A stretch of 64,000 bases of DNA from Nitratifractor salsuginis DSM 16511 (lineage in GTDB: Bacteria > Campylobacterota > Campylobacteria > Campylobacterales > Sulfurovaceae): NCBI RefSeq assembly GCF_000186245.1, contig NC_014935.1, positions 1,488,001-1,552,000 on the forward strand. The letters are read 5' to 3'. The notes beneath the pieces were generated by a model. That model made no database searches, was not told the origin of the DNA, and worked only from the letters and a program-made list of their open reading frames with translations. Each line of letters begins with the position of its first letter. Positions within the stretch are counted from its first letter, which is position 1. The position numbers and the translations under genes were made by a program. Shown here piece after piece: positions 548-50,940 of the stretch.

Positions 548-1709
548 GATTGGCCTCCCATCGCAAGATCACTTCCGTCCCCTTACCCTTTTGTGAATGT
601 ACTTCGATCTTCCAGCCGTAATGATCGACGATCCCTTTGACGATATCGAGCCCCAGGCCGAAGCCCCCCTCAGTGTCGTTGAAACGCCGGTAGCGCTCGA
701 AGATCTGCTCGACCTCCTCCGGCTCCATCCCCCCGCCCGTATCGGCGACCCTCAACTCTCCGGGCGTGAGAGAGACTTGGAGCGTGCCTCCCCGGCGGTT
801 GTATTTCACGGCATTGGAGAGGAGATTGTCGAGGACCCGTGCCAGCAGTCGTCGATCGGCCCGGATCGTGACGGGTTGGATATGGCTTTCGAGCTTCAGG
901 TTTTTCGAACGCAGCAGCAGATCGAAATAGTCCAGGCGCTCTCCAAGCAGCCGATCCAGATCGAGATTTTCATCCCGGGTGGGGCGATGGCGCTCCAGGG
1001 TCACGAATTTCAGATCCTCATAGAGGGTCGAGACGGTGCGCGCCGCCACCCCGATACGCTCCAGGCGTCGCCGATCCTCCGGGGGCATCGAGGCGGCATC
1101 GATCATCTCGATATTGGCCAGGATCGAAGAGAGGGGGGTATTGAGCTCGTGGGTGGTATCGTGGATAAAATCGTCCAAAAGCCGGATCGACTGGCGCATA
1201 GGCCGCACAAAAAGACGGGCCAGATAATACCCCAGCAGCGCCAAGACCAATCCCAAAACGGCACCGGTGAGAAGAATGCGTCGCCAAACCCCGTTCATCC
1301 ACGAGTGATCCCTGGGCACTTCGATGAAGAGGTATTTAGCCCCCAGATAGTAGAGGTCGAGGACTTTGACATAGTGGATCACATCCCCGACGGTGTAGAT
1401 ATCTCCCAGGAAATCGACGTGAGGGTTGCGCAGCGTGGAGAAGATCCTGACATGCTCCAGGTCGTAGATGGCGCTTCGGAAACGCTCGTCCCTTGGATAG
1501 CGGTTTTCTTTCGGAAAATGTTCATGGAGGCGTCTGAGCCGGTGGATCTGCTCCGTGGCGTACTCCATCATCCGGCTTTTGGTCCGCAGAAGCATCAGCT
1601 GCTCTTGATTGCGGTAATAGAGGGTGCTTCCCAGTACAAAAAGTCCGAACATCAGGAGGCTGTAGAGAAAAAGAAAACGCCGAAGGCTCTTGCGTTCACT
1701 CCGCAGCAC
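540..1709 (-). CDS. Two-component sensor histidine kinase
   Basis: 389 residues. Two membrane segments (about 11-30 and 144-167) flank a periplasmic sensor region of roughly 110 residues. A HisKA dimerisation domain follows with the H-box H-E-L-N-T-P, phospho-accepting His187, then an HATPase_c domain with the N-box (D-N-L-L-S-N-A-V-K-Y-N) and glycine-rich G1/G2 boxes (D-T-G-G-G, G-F-G-L-G-L). The start overlaps the response regulator stop region by 14 bases. It autophosphorylates and presumably passes phosphate to that regulator. The signal is unknown; the following cytochrome hints at a redox or respiratory cue, which is inference. Confidence 0.92.
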   Translation of the reverse strand: MLRSERKSLRRFLFLYSLLMFGLFVLGSTLYYRNQEQLMLLRTKSRMMEYATEQIHRLRRLHEHFPKENRYPRDERFRSAIYDLEHVRIFSTLRNPHVDFLGDIYTVGDVIHYVKVLDLYYLGAKYLFIEVPRDHSWMNGVWRRILLTGAVLGLVLALLGYYLARLFVRPMRQSIRLLDDFIHDTTHELNTPLSSILANIEMIDAASMPPEDRRRLERIGVAARTVSTLYEDLKFVTLERHRPTRDENLDLDRLLGERLDYFDLLLRSKNLKLESHIQPVTIRADRRLLARVLDNLLSNAVKYNRRGGTLQVSLTPGELRVADTGGGMEPEEVEQIFERYRRFNDTEGGFGLGLDIVKGIVDHYGWKIEVHSQKGKGTEVILRWEANRE

Positions 1710-2376
1710 GATAGAGATACCCCTGTTTTTTGAGGCTGACGATCCGTTCTTTGCCGATGCGTTTACGCAGGTTTTTGATGTAGGTTCTCAGAGCGCTGTC
1801 GCTGGGGTTCTCCCCATAATCCCAAAGCCGCTCATAAATCCGTTCATGGGAGAGCACTTCCCCGGGATGGGTGACGAAAAGCTCCAATAGGCGGGCCTCT
1901 TTGCGCCCCAGCAGCTCCTCTTCACCCCCGGAGCCGAAAAGCCGTCCCGAAGCGGGATCGTATTCCCAGCCGTTCCCCAGAGAGATCCTTGAAGAGGCGG
2001 GGTGTTTTACGCGGCGCTGCAGAAGGGTCTCGATCCGAATTTTGAGCTCTTTGAGTTCAAAAGGTTTGCGCAGATAGTCGTCGGCACCGCTGCGGAAGCC
2101 CTCTTCCAGGTCCTCCACACTCCGGCGTGCCGTGATGAAGATCGCCGGTGTCTCCGTCCCCTGCTCTCTGGCCTCTTTGAGAAAATCGAATCCGTTGACC
2201 CCCGGCGTGTTGACATCCAGCAGCAGCAGGTCGAAGGATTGTTCATAGAGGCGGTCCTGGGCCTCTTCGCCGTCATAGGCCGGGACAACCTCGTATCCGG
2301 CACTCTCCAGATAATCACAAAGCGTTGCACTCAAATTGGCGTCATCTTCCAATACCAGAAGTTTTTTTGATGCCAT
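1696..2376 (-). CDS. OmpR/PhoB-family response regulator
   Basis: 226 residues: an N-terminal receiver domain with acidic pair E10-D11-D12, phospho-acceptor Asp54 (L-L-L-L-D) and conserved Lys104 (R-K-P-F), followed by a C-terminal winged-helix DNA-binding domain (about 130-226) ending in the usual R-T-Y-I-K-N-L-R-K-R-I recognition-helix region. First gene of the regulator-kinase-cytochrome operon; it overlaps the kinase start. A transcription factor whose regulon cannot be read from here, though its own operon and the adjacent cytochrome are natural candidates. Confidence 0.93.
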   Translation of the reverse strand: MASKKLLVLEDDANLSATLCDYLESAGYEVVPAYDGEEAQDRLYEQSFDLLLLDVNTPGVNGFDFLKEAREQGTETPAIFITARRSVEDLEEGFRSGADDYLRKPFELKELKIRIETLLQRRVKHPASSRISLGNGWEYDPASGRLFGSGGEEELLGRKEARLLELFVTHPGEVLSHERIYERLWDYGENPSDSALRTYIKNLRKRIGKERIVSLKKQGYLYRAAE

Positions 2377-44813: not shown

Positions 44814-45677
44814 ATGCGTAAATTATCTATGATGTTACTCGGCTCACTCTCGCTCGCTTTCGCCGGGCCGAAAACGATGACCACGGTGCTGCCCTATGCG
44901 GGCTATATCGACTACAGCTCCGGATCCGACAAGAGCAGTGCCGTCGTCGGTGGCCTCTATGCCTCCATCTATCGTGCTCCAAACAAATTGGAATTGGCGG
45001 TGGAACATACCCGGATCAAATATCGCCACAACCTTCCCAACCTCAACCAGACTGACCTGACCGCCATCTATACCCGTTATCGCGGCTATCATTTGGCTTA
45101 CAAGATCGGGGCTCACTACATCGACAGCGACGACAAGGTGACCGACGGCGCTTTTACCGGGATTTTGGGAGTCAACTGGTACAACTACCTTCACTACAAT
45201 ATCGGGCTTGACGCTTACGCCACCCACTACCACAACGACGCTTCAGGCCGAACCTGGGACTCTATGAACGTTTGGCAATTCCGACCCTATGCCGGATACA
45301 ATTTCGGTACCTATGCCAGCACTATGGGAAGCTTCTATCTCGAAGCGGAGTACAACGGGATCTTCATCCCCGACGCCGGAGCCAAAGGCTACAACAGCAG
45401 TTACCACTCCGCCGGACTGAGTCTCTACCATTACAAAGGCAAATGGACCCATATGATCAAAGGCTGGGTGGGACAGAAAATCTACTCCGTCAACAATGGA
45501 GGCTTCACGGTCTACAACCTCGGAGAACTCTACAAAGGCGGCGTCAGCGCCAGCGTCAGCTATGCCATCCGTCCCAACACTTCCCTGAAGCTTCAGTACG
45601 AATACAGCCGATTCGAGCACCTGGGTAACAAAGCCCACAGCAACAGTATCGTGGCGATGGTCAGCCATACCTTCTGA
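44814..45677 (+). CDS. Outer-membrane beta-barrel protein
   Basis: 287 residues. Signal peptide (cleavage after L-A-F-A near residue 17), then alternating strands rich in Tyr, His and Gly, ending in M-V-S-H-T-F, the C-terminal Phe needed for barrel insertion. AGGAGA is 7 bases before the ATG and GATAAAAT upstream serves as -10. It precedes the PqqD/ATP-grasp gene set by 72 bp; whether it belongs to it is unknown. Confidence 0.72.
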   Translation: MRKLSMMLLGSLSLAFAGPKTMTTVLPYAGYIDYSSGSDKSSAVVGGLYASIYRAPNKLELAVEHTRIKYRHNLPNLNQTDLTAIYTRYRGYHLAYKIGAHYIDSDDKVTDGAFTGILGVNWYNYLHYNIGLDAYATHYHNDASGRTWDSMNVWQFRPYAGYNFGTYASTMGSFYLEAEYNGIFIPDAGAKGYNSSYHSAGLSLYHYKGKWTHMIKGWVGQKIYSVNNGGFTVYNLGELYKGGVSASVSYAIRPNTSLKLQYEYSRFEHLGNKAHSNSIVAMVSHTF

Positions 45678-45749: not shown

Positions 45750-45986
45750 ATGCAACTCCAACATCTGGTTATCGACGAAAACGGAATGGCTTTCGACCCC
45801 ACGGTGGGGACCTCCTACCAACTGGGAGGCTCTGCCCAGGAGATCATCGATCTGCTCAAAGAGGGCAAAACGAAAAACGAGATCGTCGAGACCCTGGCTC
45901 AACGTCACGGAGCCGACCGCTCGGAGATCTATATCGACGTGAGCGATTTTCTGGCCAAACTCAGGATCTACGGATTGATCCGATGA
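45750..45986 (+). CDS. PqqD-like (RRE-type) peptide chaperone
   Basis: 78 residues. The PqqD fold is suggested by an N-terminal strand pair (L-V-I-D-E-N-G-M-A-F-D-P-T-V-G-T-S-Y-Q-L), G-S-A-Q-E-I-I-D-L-L-K-E-G-K-T-K-N-E-I and a final wing ending F-L-A-K-L-R-I-Y-G-L-I. In PQQ and other RiPP pathways such proteins bind a precursor leader peptide and present it to a modifying enzyme. Here the enzyme would be the ATP-grasp protein, whose ATG overlaps this stop by 4 bases. No precursor peptide gene was seen. Confidence 0.75.
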   Translation: MQLQHLVIDENGMAFDPTVGTSYQLGGSAQEIIDLLKEGKTKNEIVETLAQRHGADRSEIYIDVSDFLAKLRIYGLIR

Positions 45987-47005
45987 TCCGGACCGTGGCG
46001 CTCAGCGGCCTTAATGCCACGGACAATCCCGCCCCCGGTTACCCCATCGCCAAAAGCCTCAAAGGCGAAACCAGGCTCGTCGGCCTGAGCTACGACCCCA
46101 ACGAACCGGCGGATTATATGGACGATCTCTTCGAGCGGGTCTATCTGATGCCCTTTCCCACCCTGGGCTTCGACGAACTGCGCCCCCGCCTCGAAGAGAT
46201 CCGGCGCCGGGAGGCGATCGATATGGTCATCCCCAACCTGGATGCGGAACTCCCCCTCTATATCCGCTATCAAAAGGAGATCAATGCCTTGGGGATCCGG
46301 ACCTTTCTCCCGACCCTCGAGCATTTCGAGTTGCGGGATAAAAGCCGGCTCCCCAAACTCTCCGAAGCACTGGGAGTCCTCCACCCGCGAACGATGGAGC
46401 TCACTTCGGTCGATGACCTCATCCGGGCTTCCAAAGAGTTCTCTTTCCCCTTTATGATCAAAGGCAACTACTACAAAGCCTACAAGGTCTACAACCTGGA
46501 GAGCGCTCTGGACGCCTTTCACAAGATTTCGGCGGAGTGGGGCTTCCCCCTGCTCATCCAGGAGGTGGTCCAGGGCTCGGAGATCAATCTGGTGGGCCTG
46601 GGGGACGGCCAGGGTGAACTGGTCGGTGCCCTCTCGATGAAAAAACTCACCACCACGGAACTGGGCAAGATCTGGACCGGCGTGACCATCCACCACGACG
46701 GGCTGATGCAGACGGCGGAGCGTTTCGTCCGGGAGACCGGGTGGCGTGGGCCCTTCGAGCTGGAGTGCATCGCCGACGGAGAGCGCCTCTACATCATCGA
46801 GATCAATCCCCGTTTCCCCGCCTGGGTCTATTTCGCCACCGGCGTGGGGATCAATCTCCCCCAAATGATGGTCAGGCTGGCCCGGGGTGAAAAGGTCGAA
46901 CCCCGCCGGGAATTCCCCGACGGAAAGATGTATGTCCGCTATACCGAAGAGCTGATCACCGACTTTTCGGAATTTTCCAAACTGATGACGACAAAGGAAC
47001 GCTAA
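45983..47005 (+). CDS. ATP-grasp ligase
   Basis: 340 residues. An N-terminal Rossmann-like region (about 1-110), then an ATP-grasp core: F-P-F-M-I-K-G (ATP-binding Lys), L-L-I-Q-E-V-V-Q-G-S-E (hinge), G-P-F-E-L-E-C and I-I-E-I-N-P-R-F-P-A-W (metal-binding Glu/Asn). Such enzymes join a carboxylate, via acyl-phosphate, to an amine or thiol. Coupled to the PqqD-like gene (overlap) and to the decarboxylase (TAA then ATG with no gap). Substrate unknown. Confidence 0.82.
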   Translation: MIRTVALSGLNATDNPAPGYPIAKSLKGETRLVGLSYDPNEPADYMDDLFERVYLMPFPTLGFDELRPRLEEIRRREAIDMVIPNLDAELPLYIRYQKEINALGIRTFLPTLEHFELRDKSRLPKLSEALGVLHPRTMELTSVDDLIRASKEFSFPFMIKGNYYKAYKVYNLESALDAFHKISAEWGFPLLIQEVVQGSEINLVGLGDGQGELVGALSMKKLTTTELGKIWTGVTIHHDGLMQTAERFVRETGWRGPFELECIADGERLYIIEINPRFPAWVYFATGVGINLPQMMVRLARGEKVEPRREFPDGKMYVRYTEELITDFSEFSKLMTTKER

Positions 47006-48349
47006 ATGAGCTATCAAAAACCCACCATCAACAAAGTCGATTTCGCCATGATGAGCAAATACGGCTCCCCCCTCAAAAGCCAGAAGATCCGCAGCGAGAT
47101 CGCCGGGGTGGATGTCCGTGAACTGGTCCAAAACTACGGCAGTCCCCTCTTCGTATTCTCCCAGCAGGAGATCGAAGAGAAATACCACCGCCTGCACGAA
47201 GCTTTCAGCTCCCGCTACCCCGACGTGGTCTTCGGCTGGAGTTACAAGACCAATTACCTCAACGCCATCTGCAATCTTTACCATAAACTCGGAAGCATCG
47301 CCGAAGTGGTCAGCGAATTCGAGTACCAGAAAGCCCGTGCCCTGGGAATCGAGGGCAAGGATATCATCTTCAACGGACCCTACAAGCCCAAAGAGGCGCT
47401 GAAAGTCGCCGTCGAAGAGGGCGCCAAGATCCATATCGACCACCTCTTCGAAATCAACGACCTGGAAGAGATCGCCCGGGAGCTGGGGGTCAAGATCCCC
47501 GTGGCGATCCGGGTCAATATGGATACGGGGATCTACCCCCAGTGGAGCCGCTTCGGATTCAACTACGAATCGGGAGAAGCGATCGATGCCATCGAGAGGA
47601 TCCACAGCGGCGGCCTCCTGGAGCTGACGGGTCTGCATTCCCACATCGGGACCTTTATGCTCGACGCCAGTGCCTACGGCAAAGAGACCGCCAAGCTGAT
47701 GGATTTGAAACACCAGGCCGAAGAGCGTTTCGGTTACCGGATCGAATACATCGATATCGGCGGGGGTTTCGCCAGCAAAAACCGGCTCAAGGGAGTGTAC
47801 CAATCCCCCGACGTCATCGTCCCCACCCCCGACGATTACGCCCAGCAGATCACCGAAGCGATCTACACCCACAACAAGAGCGACACTCTGCCCCGGCTCT
47901 ACCTCGAGACCGGCCGTCACCTCATCGACGAAGCGGGCTACCTCTTGACGACGGTTCAAGCCTACAAGCGCTTCCCCGATGGAATGAAAGGGTACATCCT
48001 CGATGCCGGGGTCAATCTCCTCTACACCGCCACCTGGTACAACTTCAACTTCGAACTGGATCGGCGTTATGAGGGGCTCAACGAACCCTCCATGCTCAAC
48101 GGCCCTCTCTGTATGAACATCGATATCCTCAGCGAAAACATCATGCTTCCCCCTCTGGATCGCGGGACCGTCATCACCATCGGCCCGGTCGGCGCCTACA
48201 ATTACACCCAGTCGATGCAATTCATCCGCTACCGCCCGGCGGCTGTGCTCATCGACAAAGAGCGCAATGTCCATCTCATCAAAGAGCCCGACGATCTGGA
48301 GACGATCAACTACAAAGAGCGGATCCCCGACTATCTGAAGCGCTCCTGA
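47006..48349 (+). CDS. LysA-like PLP-dependent amino-acid decarboxylase
   Basis: 447 residues, fold-III PLP enzyme. PLP Lys in W-S-Y-K-T-N-Y, H-S-H-I-G-T (His stacking on PLP), I-G-G-G-F-A (phosphate loop), E-T-G-R-H-L (usually E-P-G-R), and the inter-subunit Cys in G-P-L-C-M-N-I-D-I-L. It resembles diaminopimelate decarboxylase but is longer at the N-terminus and altered in the substrate loop, and neither neighbour is a lysine gene. A related D-amino acid or diamino acid decarboxylase is likely. Housekeeping LysA and carboxynorspermidine decarboxylase were considered and are less fitting. Confidence 0.82.
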   Translation: MSYQKPTINKVDFAMMSKYGSPLKSQKIRSEIAGVDVRELVQNYGSPLFVFSQQEIEEKYHRLHEAFSSRYPDVVFGWSYKTNYLNAICNLYHKLGSIAEVVSEFEYQKARALGIEGKDIIFNGPYKPKEALKVAVEEGAKIHIDHLFEINDLEEIARELGVKIPVAIRVNMDTGIYPQWSRFGFNYESGEAIDAIERIHSGGLLELTGLHSHIGTFMLDASAYGKETAKLMDLKHQAEERFGYRIEYIDIGGGFASKNRLKGVYQSPDVIVPTPDDYAQQITEAIYTHNKSDTLPRLYLETGRHLIDEAGYLLTTVQAYKRFPDGMKGYILDAGVNLLYTATWYNFNFELDRRYEGLNEPSMLNGPLCMNIDILSENIMLPPLDRGTVITIGPVGAYNYTQSMQFIRYRPAAVLIDKERNVHLIKEPDDLETINYKERIPDYLKRS

Positions 48350-48355
48350 TTCATC

Positions 48356-50377
48356 ATGCAGAACCTGATCTCCCTGATCCTGCGCCCCTATGCGGCGATC
48401 CTTTTCCTCGAAAACCGCATCGCCGGCGCTCTTTTGCTGCTGCTGACCTTCGCGGAACCCACCGTAGGGATCAGCGGACTTTTCGCCCTGCTCTGCACCA
48501 TCGTTTTTGCGGAGTTCGCCGGATTGCGGCACACCTATCTCGAACACGGTTTCTATCTCTACAACTCCCTGCTGGTCGGTCTGGGGATCGGTTTTCTCTT
48601 CACCCCCTCGGTGATGAGTTTTCTTTTCATCTTTCTGTTGGCGGTGCTGACCTTTCTCAGCTCCTTCAGTATCAGCACCCTTTTCGCCCGCTGGCGCATT
48701 CCACCGCTCTCCCTCCCTTTCGCGCTGGTCACAGCCCTGGCCTATCTGGCGGCGATGAATTACAACGGGCTGCTCGCCCACTTTCATAACGGTCTGGCCC
48801 ATTACGCCTTCCTGGGTGACACTTCCCTGGGATCCTACCTCAGCTCGCTGGGGTCGATCTTTTTCCTCCCCAACCAGGCGGCGGGCCTGGTGATGGCTCT
48901 GATCCTGCTGGTGATCTCCCCGACCCTTTTTTCCCTCTCGCTGGCAGGATTCTATACGGGGGTGGCTACCCATGCTCTGCTCATCGGTTCCTGGAGTGCC
49001 GCCTATCACGATGTCTACGCCTTCAACTATATTCTGGTGGCAATGGCTCTGGGTGGAATCTTCCTCCTGCCCTTTTGGAGAAACTATATCTACGCCGGGA
49101 TCGCCGTGGCACTGAGTGTCATCTTCGCCGATGCGACGAAGATCTTTTTCAACTACTACTCCCTCCCTGTTTTCACCCTTCCCTTCAACGCCGTCGTCAT
49201 GGTCGTGCTCTTTTTGCTGGTGGTCGTCGGATACGAAGGGCTCAACAGCGCCATCAAAGCCACGCCGGAGGCTTCCCTGGCCTACTACCTGCAGACCCTC
49301 TTCCGCTTCGGGCCCAAGGTCCCCAACATCGCCCTCCCCTTCAGCGGCCGATGGAACGTCTATCAGGGATTTGACGGCGAATGGACCCACAAGGGCGCAT
49401 GGCGCTACGCCTACGACTTCATTGTCCTGAGAAACGGCTCCAGCTACCGGACTACCGGAGACTATCCCGAGGATTACCACTGCTTCGGCGAGAGTGTCCT
49501 CTCTCCGGTCAACGGCTATGTCGTCGCCCTCCTCTCCGATCTGCCCGACAACCCCATCGGCACCGTCGATCGGATCAACAACTGGGGCAACTACATCATC
49601 CTCCAGAGTCTCGACGGGCACTACATCGAAATCAGCCATCTGATGCAGCACTCGATCCTTCCCAAAGTCGGGGAGTATGTGCGCCTGGGACAGGTCATCG
49701 CCAAATGCGGGAACAGCGGCTACTCTCCCCAGCCCCATCTCCATATCCAGGTGCAGCGTACCGGGATCCTGGGCAGTGAGACCGTTCCCTTCCGCTTCGT
49801 CCTCTACCGTCAGGCATCCCGGATACTTTTTCACGCGCTTCCCCACACAGGTGAGGAGGTCGAAGCGCTCCTTCCGACCCAGAATATGCAGATGCAGTTC
49901 TCCTTCGTCCTCGACGAGCGTTTTGTCTACGAGCGTTTCGTGGAGGGGCAGCCCTCCGGCACGGTCCGCTGGCAGGTCGCGATGAACCATCTGGGAGAAT
50001 TCTATCTCAGTGACGGCGACAACCGGCTCTTTTTCTATACGGCGCCGACCTTTTTCTACTTCTATCATTACGAGGGGAATCCCGACAGTGAACTCGCCCA
50101 ACTCTTCAAACTGGCTCCCCGGATCCCCCTGAGTATGGTCTCCTCCGCCAGCTTCCGGGATGCCCTCCCCATCTACCTGCTCGAATCCCGCCTCAAACGG
50201 ATCTGGATTATGATGATCGCCTCTTTCCGGCCCGAATATTACCGTCGGGAATTCGACTATACGATGGAGCGATTCAGCCTCAACTCCGAATTCGGGCAAG
50301 TCACTTTCGCCGTCAACCAAAAAGGCTTCGATGAGATACGATACGGTAATATTTTGTTAAAAAAGCAGTGCGAATGA
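48356..50377 (+). CDS. Urea-transporter-like membrane domain fused to M23 peptidase
   Basis: 673 residues. About ten membrane segments fill residues 1-310, with two urea-transporter-like halves (Y-L-Y-N-S-L-L-V-G-L-G-I-G near 63-75; P-P-L-S-L-P-F-A-L-V-T in the first half, P-V-F-T-L-P-F-N-A-V-V in the second). A periplasmic LytM/M23 domain follows: T-H-K-G-A-W-R-Y-A-Y-D (HxG...D, about 345-354), S-P-V-N-G-Y-V-V, N-N-W-G-N-Y-I-I, Y-I-E-I-S-H-L, and P-H-L-H-I-Q (HxH, about 461). About 200 further residues are unassigned. The zinc ligands appear complete, so active peptidoglycan or peptide hydrolysis is possible. It follows the decarboxylase by 6 bp. Confidence 0.82.
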   Translation: MQNLISLILRPYAAILFLENRIAGALLLLLTFAEPTVGISGLFALLCTIVFAEFAGLRHTYLEHGFYLYNSLLVGLGIGFLFTPSVMSFLFIFLLAVLTFLSSFSISTLFARWRIPPLSLPFALVTALAYLAAMNYNGLLAHFHNGLAHYAFLGDTSLGSYLSSLGSIFFLPNQAAGLVMALILLVISPTLFSLSLAGFYTGVATHALLIGSWSAAYHDVYAFNYILVAMALGGIFLLPFWRNYIYAGIAVALSVIFADATKIFFNYYSLPVFTLPFNAVVMVVLFLLVVVGYEGLNSAIKATPEASLAYYLQTLFRFGPKVPNIALPFSGRWNVYQGFDGEWTHKGAWRYAYDFIVLRNGSSYRTTGDYPEDYHCFGESVLSPVNGYVVALLSDLPDNPIGTVDRINNWGNYIILQSLDGHYIEISHLMQHSILPKVGEYVRLGQVIAKCGNSGYSPQPHLHIQVQRTGILGSETVPFRFVLYRQASRILFHALPHTGEEVEALLPTQNMQMQFSFVLDERFVYERFVEGQPSGTVRWQVAMNHLGEFYLSDGDNRLFFYTAPTFFYFYHYEGNPDSELAQLFKLAPRIPLSMVSSASFRDALPIYLLESRLKRIWIMMIASFRPEYYRREFDYTMERFSLNSEFGQVTFAVNQKGFDEIRYGNILLKKQCE

Positions 50378-50940
50378 GACGATTGATCCCGATTCTTTTC
50401 CTTTTGAGTGTGCTTCTGTGGGGAGCTGCATCACCCGGGAACGAAGCGATCTCCCGGGCTTACCGAAACTCCTACACCCTCGAAAGCCAGGGGAAGTACC
50501 GCAAAGCCCTTGAAGTTTTTCAGCCCCTGGAGCCCACGCTGAAACATCAATACGGCTACAATCTTCGGATGGCCTGGCTCTACTCCCTGGCAGGCGACTA
50601 CAAGAAGGCAGTACGCTACTACACCAAGGCTTCACTCATCAAGCCCGACTCCTTCGAACCGCGCCTGGGACTCGCCAGAGTCTATCTCCCGCTGCACAAA
50701 CCCTCCCTCGCCGAGATCAACGCCAAAATCGTCCTGGAGAAAGATCCGCTGAACTATTATGCCAATCTCTACCTGGCTCGAACCCTCCTGGCACTTCATC
50801 AAAAAGATGCGGCCCGTCGCATCGTCAAACGGCTTTTGACCTACTATCCCAGTTCCCCGGAGTTTCTCCGCCTCTCTGCCCGCTTGACATCCAAGCCCAA
50901 AGCCGCGAAGCACCCGAAAATATCCCCGAAGAGCCGCTGA
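50374..50940 (+). CDS. Secreted TPR protein
   Basis: 188 residues from the ATG at 50374, which overlaps the previous stop (ATGA). Signal peptide (about 1-20) and tetratricopeptide-like helix pairs (Y-R-K-A-L-E-V-F, A-W-L-Y-S-L-A-G-D-Y-K-K-A-V-R-Y-Y-T-K-A, P-L-N-Y-Y-A-N-L-Y-L-A-R). A basic Lys/Pro tail ends it. Probably a periplasmic scaffold for the UT-M23 protein; that is inference from coupling. Confidence 0.75.
   Translation: MRRLIPILFLLSVLLWGAASPGNEAISRAYRNSYTLESQGKYRKALEVFQPLEPTLKHQYGYNLRMAWLYSLAGDYKKAVRYYTKASLIKPDSFEPRLGLARVYLPLHKPSLAEINAKIVLEKDPLNYYANLYLARTLLALHQKDAARRIVKRLLTYYPSSPEFLRLSARLTSKPKAAKHPKISPKSR

Follow-up and report, generated by a model that had tools for sequence, protein, structure and literature searches.

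A conserved gene cassette of Nitratifractor salsuginis combines a PqqD-type protein, an ATP-grasp ligase, a LysA-like decarboxylase and a urea-channel–M23 fusion, and may make and export an amino-acid conjugate

The LysA-like decarboxylases FslC, SbnH, AcsE, MccE and BtrK, which act on conjugated amino acids, form a described sub-family. In butirosin biosynthesis, the ATP-grasp enzyme BtrJ reportedly attaches the side chain of an amino acid to a small protein. The LysA-like enzyme BtrK decarboxylates the glutamyl-carrier of this pathway, and the LysA-type domain of MccE decarboxylates the amino-acid group on a peptide conjugate in microcin C (PMC7857480).

In this study, we compared these systems with a locus of Nitratifractor salsuginis, whose genome is a single contig of 2,101,285 bp; the window (the whole stretch of DNA that was analysed) covers 64,000 nucleotides. 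The locus encodes an alanine-racemase-fold PLP decarboxylase, here called LysA2, that shares with FslC/FigC of rhizoferrin biosynthesis (7kh2; PMC7857480) both this fold and the R, Y, M and Y residues that touch the amide and the aliphatic stem; a partner enzyme is proposed to make the amide first, as in rhizoferrin. LysA2, however, has no citrate-binding residues, the ligase is of the ATP-grasp type rather than an NIS synthetase, and the cassette has no siderophore or MFS genes but carries a UT-M23 fusion, a TPR protein and a barrel. The route proposed here also resembles BtrJ/BtrI/BtrK, with ATP-grasp loading followed by LysA-like decarboxylation, whereas the small partner is PqqD-like instead of an acyl carrier protein, aminoglycoside genes are missing and an export block is added. 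The MccA/MccB-like part of microcin C has no counterpart in the cassette. RRE-guided RiPP systems, those of graspetides and lasso peptides among them, share the PqqD/RRE protein, and graspetides also an ATP-grasp enzyme, but the cassette locus has no precursor peptide and its ATP-grasp enzyme is CPSase/PylC-like; two graspetide and ATP-grasp surveys mention no such gene set, decarboxylase or UT-M23. The urea channel of Desulfovibrio vulgaris (3k3g/3me1) has the same fold as UT-M23 over about 300 residues, to which UT-M23 adds the M23 domain and a further C-terminal domain. All parts of the cassette come from known families, and its ligate-then-decarboxylate logic is already known from butirosin and rhizoferrin. 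In the open-licence literature, we did not find PqqD, ATP-grasp, decarboxylase and M23 joined, nor UT with M23, and we neither know of nor found there a described system with this composition.

A sequence-only reading had described five overlapping or abutting genes as one functional unit. The five ORFs were intact and all on the plus strand, and their coordinates, overlaps and gaps were exactly as that reading gave them; Pfam bore out its family assignments. The gene pqqD (45750..45986) encodes a 78-aa, RRE-like protein of the PqqD family that is predicted to present a substrate, and it overlaps by 4 bp the gene for a 340-aa, CPSase-like ATP-grasp ligase (45983..47005). lysA2 (47006..48349, 447 aa) follows at 0 bp and UT-M23 (48356..50377, 673 aa) after 6 bp. 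UT-M23 overlaps by 4 bp a TPR gene (50374..50940), whose 188-aa product has a hydrophobic N-terminal signal-like segment. The five-gene extent missed a sixth member, however, an outer-membrane beta-barrel gene (44814..45677, plus strand; 287 aa, 14 predicted strands, N-terminal signal peptide), the family of which lies beside the core in 62 of the 80 loci described below. The six genes, barrel included, form one cassette, and this unit is firm. An antisense open frame of 1450 aa (45968-50320, minus strand) spans the whole cassette, shows no gene signs and is probably a by-product of codon usage.

We scanned 84,980 species genomes for UT-M23, obtained 142 relatives and examined the best 80, with flanks of up to 10 kb where present. 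The results showed that pqqD, the ATP-grasp gene, lysA2 and UT-M23 were all present in 61 of these 80 named loci (the best 80 of 142 relatives), which span about eight phyla; most of the other 19 were interrupted at contig ends. Median gaps in the core order were -4, 1 and 3 bp over 81 complete loci, a set that counts some genomes twice and whose loci are not all distinct. The core gene order is not due to chance, since it recurs with the same tight gaps. The TPR family lay beside the core in 58 of the 80 loci and an OmpR-type regulator family in 25 loci. A UT-M23 search of 60 relatives gave seven other genomes with a full-length match; in each of them lysA2 and the ATP-grasp gene lay directly upstream, and the wider surroundings differed. 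To remove the bias of the UT-M23 bait, a second search was seeded on lysA2 alone. This gave 18 positive genomes among 397 Campylobacterota and 7 among 289 Verrucomicrobiota, and all four core genes were present in each of the 25 loci (18/18 and 7/7). Together, the core order, its tight gaps and the 25 complete loci strongly support the proposal of one functional unit; homologs are not scattered independently.

lysA2 was not beside UT-M23 in L047 and L103, which have ample flank, and in several contig-end loci. Where UT-M23 lay apart from it, lysA2 was found elsewhere in all five genomes checked, within a pqqD-grasp-lysA2 block in four and interrupted by a contig end in the fifth. Split loci consist of two sub-blocks that stay in the genome, one with pqqD, the ATP-grasp gene and lysA2 together and one with UT-M23, sometimes accompanied by the TPR gene. 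The similarity matrices of lysA2 and UT-M23 co-vary (Spearman 0.92), and frameshifts or stops hit both genes together in two Campylobacterota copies (L147 and L148) whose genomes are otherwise complete.

In the lysA2 tree, most sequences cluster with others of their phylum (Campylobacterota, Aquificota, Ignavibacteriota, Calditrichota and Verrucomicrobiota, with further members from Planctomycetota, Thiotrichaceae and Cloacimonadota), so the set is probably ancient, with frequent loss. A Gemmatimonadetes bin likewise carries the cassette, and by this cassette a Nitratifractor MAG is among the closest relatives of the N. salsuginis genome. A few sequences are oddly placed and seem to come from mis-binned contigs. 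LysA2 of L084 (a Mariprofundaceae bin) is identical to the copy of a Sulfurimonas bin and probably lies on a mis-binned contig. Two other origins were considered and rejected: among the best plasmid matches there were only ordinary decarboxylases, about 30% identical, and for defence or phage origin PADLOC gave no match and PHROGs matched the M23 part only.

The PqqD protein matched Pfam PF05402 with 51.4 bits (cut-off 23.4). Its closest solved relative is TbiB1, a lasso-peptide RRE protein, and some distant copies pass the cut-off of the peptide-chaperone model TIGR04353. Membership in the HPr-rel-A system (TIGR04352/04353) was rejected, as none of six cassette genomes had an HprK-related kinase A that reached the cut-off. 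The ATP-grasp enzyme matched ATPgrasp_Ter (PF15632) with 38.6 bits (cut-off 29.1); its closest solved structure is 2pn1, a CPSase large chain, followed by PylC as a distant relative, and the motif IEINPRFPAW is conserved in the family. A second PqqD-family gene (L044:8035-8322; genome C1:740109-740306) has a stronger Pfam match, 69.7 bits, than the pqqD of the cassette; it lies upstream of a gene for an 804-aa protein, with no cassette gene adjacent.

LysA2 matched Orn_Arg_deC_N (PF02784, 105 bits) and PF00278 (40 bits), and its PLP lysine K81 is invariant; the two domains and this lysine place it among the group IV alanine-racemase-fold PLP decarboxylases. With the lysA model it scored 225.6 bits, below the cut-off of 297.9, whereas a separate true LysA of the same genome scored 529.5 bits; with the FslC model it scored 216.7 bits against a 500-bit cut-off. 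True LysA reads GPICESGD where LysA2 reads GPLCMNID (residues 366-373), and the CES(S/G)D substrate motif of LysA is absent from LysA2. CMNID was found in 67 of 67 LysA2 sequences and in four divergent copies, so that the substrate Glu of diaminopimelate (DAP) decarboxylase is Met in every copy, and M370, I372 and Q402 are invariant in the 67 sequences. The closest solved structure is the N-citrylornithine decarboxylase 7kh2 (236.6 bits), then an archaeal DAP decarboxylase, with BtrK further down. In FigC, R290, Y331, M355 and Y383 contact the stem and amide, and H357, R387 and N389 contact citrate (PMC7857480). The comparison showed that FigC K63, R290, T327, Y331, M355 and Y383 map to K81, R304, T341, Y345, M370 and Y398 of LysA2, whereas the three citrate contacts are replaced by I372, Q402 and M404. 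Judged by these residues, LysA2 is neither DAP- nor citrate-specific; its predicted substrate is an amino acid held in an amide linkage. PLP decarboxylases require a free alpha-amino group, so the partner in such a conjugate would be joined through the side chain. A product of the diamine or unusual-amine type would agree with these decarboxylase data, though in the form of an amide-linked conjugate and not as free DAP or lysine chemistry.

UT-M23 is a fusion of a urea-channel fold (about residues 1-318), an M23 metallopeptidase (about 330-480) and a beta-rich C-terminal domain of unassigned kind (about 480-673). It matched Pfam UT with 227 bits and Peptidase_M23 with 39 bits, its AF2 model was confident (pLDDT 90.9), and Foldseek matched it to the Desulfovibrio UT (TMt about 0.8) and to M23 enzymes, indicating that both the domain and the fold of a UT urea channel are present. 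The position aligned with E187 of the Desulfovibrio UT (dvUT) is not acidic in UT-M23. The zinc ligands and catalytic His of M23 (H...D...HxH; H345, D354, H428, H461 and H463) are invariant, divergent copies included; C451, close to the active site, is invariant too. In UT proteins the two termini lie on the same side of the membrane, as established for UT-B. We predict, with moderate confidence, that the M23 domain faces the cytoplasm, because UT-M23 has an even number of membrane crossings, lacks a signal peptide and carries an average of 7.0 K+R in the loops of the M23 side against 2.7 on the opposite side (43 sequences). The earlier idea that M23 processes the cell wall is doubtful under this predicted topology. 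Should this topology hold, the cassette would have an M23 peptidase that works in the cytoplasm.

The AF2 model of the barrel (pLDDT 92.7) has 14 strands, and its best PDB folds are OmpG, CymA and other porins; the barrel is predicted to be the outer-membrane channel of the system. The TPR protein matched TPR_19 (PF14559) with 58.6 bits and is predicted to be the periplasmic partner of the barrel. In Verrucomicrobiota the barrel is fused to an N-terminal TPR part, which ties the two proteins together. In L056 and L075, the barrel is duplicated in tandem: two genes of its family lie on the opposite strand, next to the TPR gene and cassette.

We tentatively propose that the cassette makes a small, decarboxylated conjugate of an amino acid and exports it, a reading to which we give somewhat under an even chance. 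In the order of reactions that we infer, the PqqD-type protein would present a peptide or other acyl partner, and the ATP-grasp enzyme would join an amino acid to it via the side chain, so that its alpha-amino and alpha-carboxyl groups both stay free. LysA2, with PLP on K81, would then decarboxylate the conjugate, as FslC/FigC do with N-citrylornithine, BtrK with the glutamyl-carrier and MccE with modified microcin C. At the cytoplasmic side of the UT channel, the zinc-dependent M23 domain may free or trim the conjugate. The product would leave through the UT pore, be accompanied across the periplasm by the TPR protein and exit by the 14-strand barrel. Two observations count against this reading: the cassette has no conserved precursor or carrier gene, and TPR and barrel genes are missing near the three most divergent Verrucomicrobiota copies. 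It is possible, with slightly more reserve, that about eight outer-membrane phyla hold an undescribed natural-product or signal pathway whose output is a new class of secreted, amide-linked amines. A PqqD-type protein, an ATP-grasp ligase and a conjugate decarboxylase would make the amine, and an M23 domain that faces the cytoplasm and is fused to an exporter of the urea-channel type would cut it.

Peptide or protein modification of a RiPP-like or scaffold-peptide type would use many of the same parts: the RRE would bind a peptide encoded elsewhere, the ATP-grasp enzyme would add an amino acid, LysA2 would decarboxylate it and M23 would be the leader peptidase, with export of the mature peptide or of a released end group. 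The lasso-peptide relative of PqqD and the TIGR04353 matches of its distant copies favour this explanation, and a cytoplasmic metallopeptidase would suit it. The RiPP-like precursor peptide or carrier gene that it brings to mind did not appear, however: no conserved small ORF was found within 800 bp of the cassettes, where the recurring ones were shadow ORFs of flanking genes. Radical SAM, YcaO and cyclase genes were all absent, and a peptide would not fit through the narrow UT pore; we regard this explanation as doubtful. A role in the envelope or in peptidoglycan modification is unlikely. In such a role, LysA2 and the ATP-grasp enzyme would make a diamine-type group that decorates murein or its precursors, murein would be trimmed by M23, and the TPR protein and barrel would belong to the envelope. 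Murein is the usual target of M23 domains and the zinc site here is intact, the phyla that carry the cassette have an outer membrane, and the cadaverine-linked murein of Selenomonas and Veillonella offers a precedent; but M23 is predicted to lie on the cytoplasmic side, Mur-ligase-like and murein-binding domains are absent, and the cassette is sporadic, as its 18 carriers among 397 Campylobacterota show.

The strong UT match and clear channel fold could also point to uptake, with UT and the barrel importing urea or a small amide for use by the enzymes. The cassette has no urease or urea carboxylase, the position aligned with E187 is non-acidic and the most conserved member of the cassette is LysA2, which together make uptake very improbable. 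That LysA2 is an ordinary DAP decarboxylase in a lysine operon is hardly credible: its match to the lysA model is the point in favour, but for this genome the true LysA encoded elsewhere contradicts it, as it does the idea of a sole DAP decarboxylase, and the substrate Glu is replaced in every copy. Among six distant lysA2-bearing MAGs, four (G425, G428, G433 and G434, bins that may be incomplete) had no LysA over cut-off, and in these LysA2 may have a DAP role or another lysine route may exist.

Under the conjugate reading, the locus would show a new use for the urea-channel fold. That a fixed set of enzymes and channels is kept in about eight phyla, with many vent and sulfur bacteria among the carriers, suggests a product worth making and seemingly unnamed. 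The names that family look-up gives to the cassette genes, 'diaminopimelate decarboxylase', 'carbamoyl phosphate synthase-like' and 'urea transporter', are probably misleading. None of the parts is too large to be studied directly in vitro.

The OmpR-type regulator family is often found in or near Campylobacterota cassettes (L046:12573-13181 and its relatives, L059, L065 and L090-L094), and at some loci it occurs with a PAS-like sensor; dedicated regulation is possible. In the window itself, a regulator at 1696-2376 (minus strand) matches the model of this family with 138 bits and lies far from the cassette. The three most divergent Verrucomicrobiota copies (L168, L169 and L170) have the four-gene core without TPR and barrel genes nearby, and their neighbours are instead FHA-type and kinase-type proteins, among others (Pfam check in L168).
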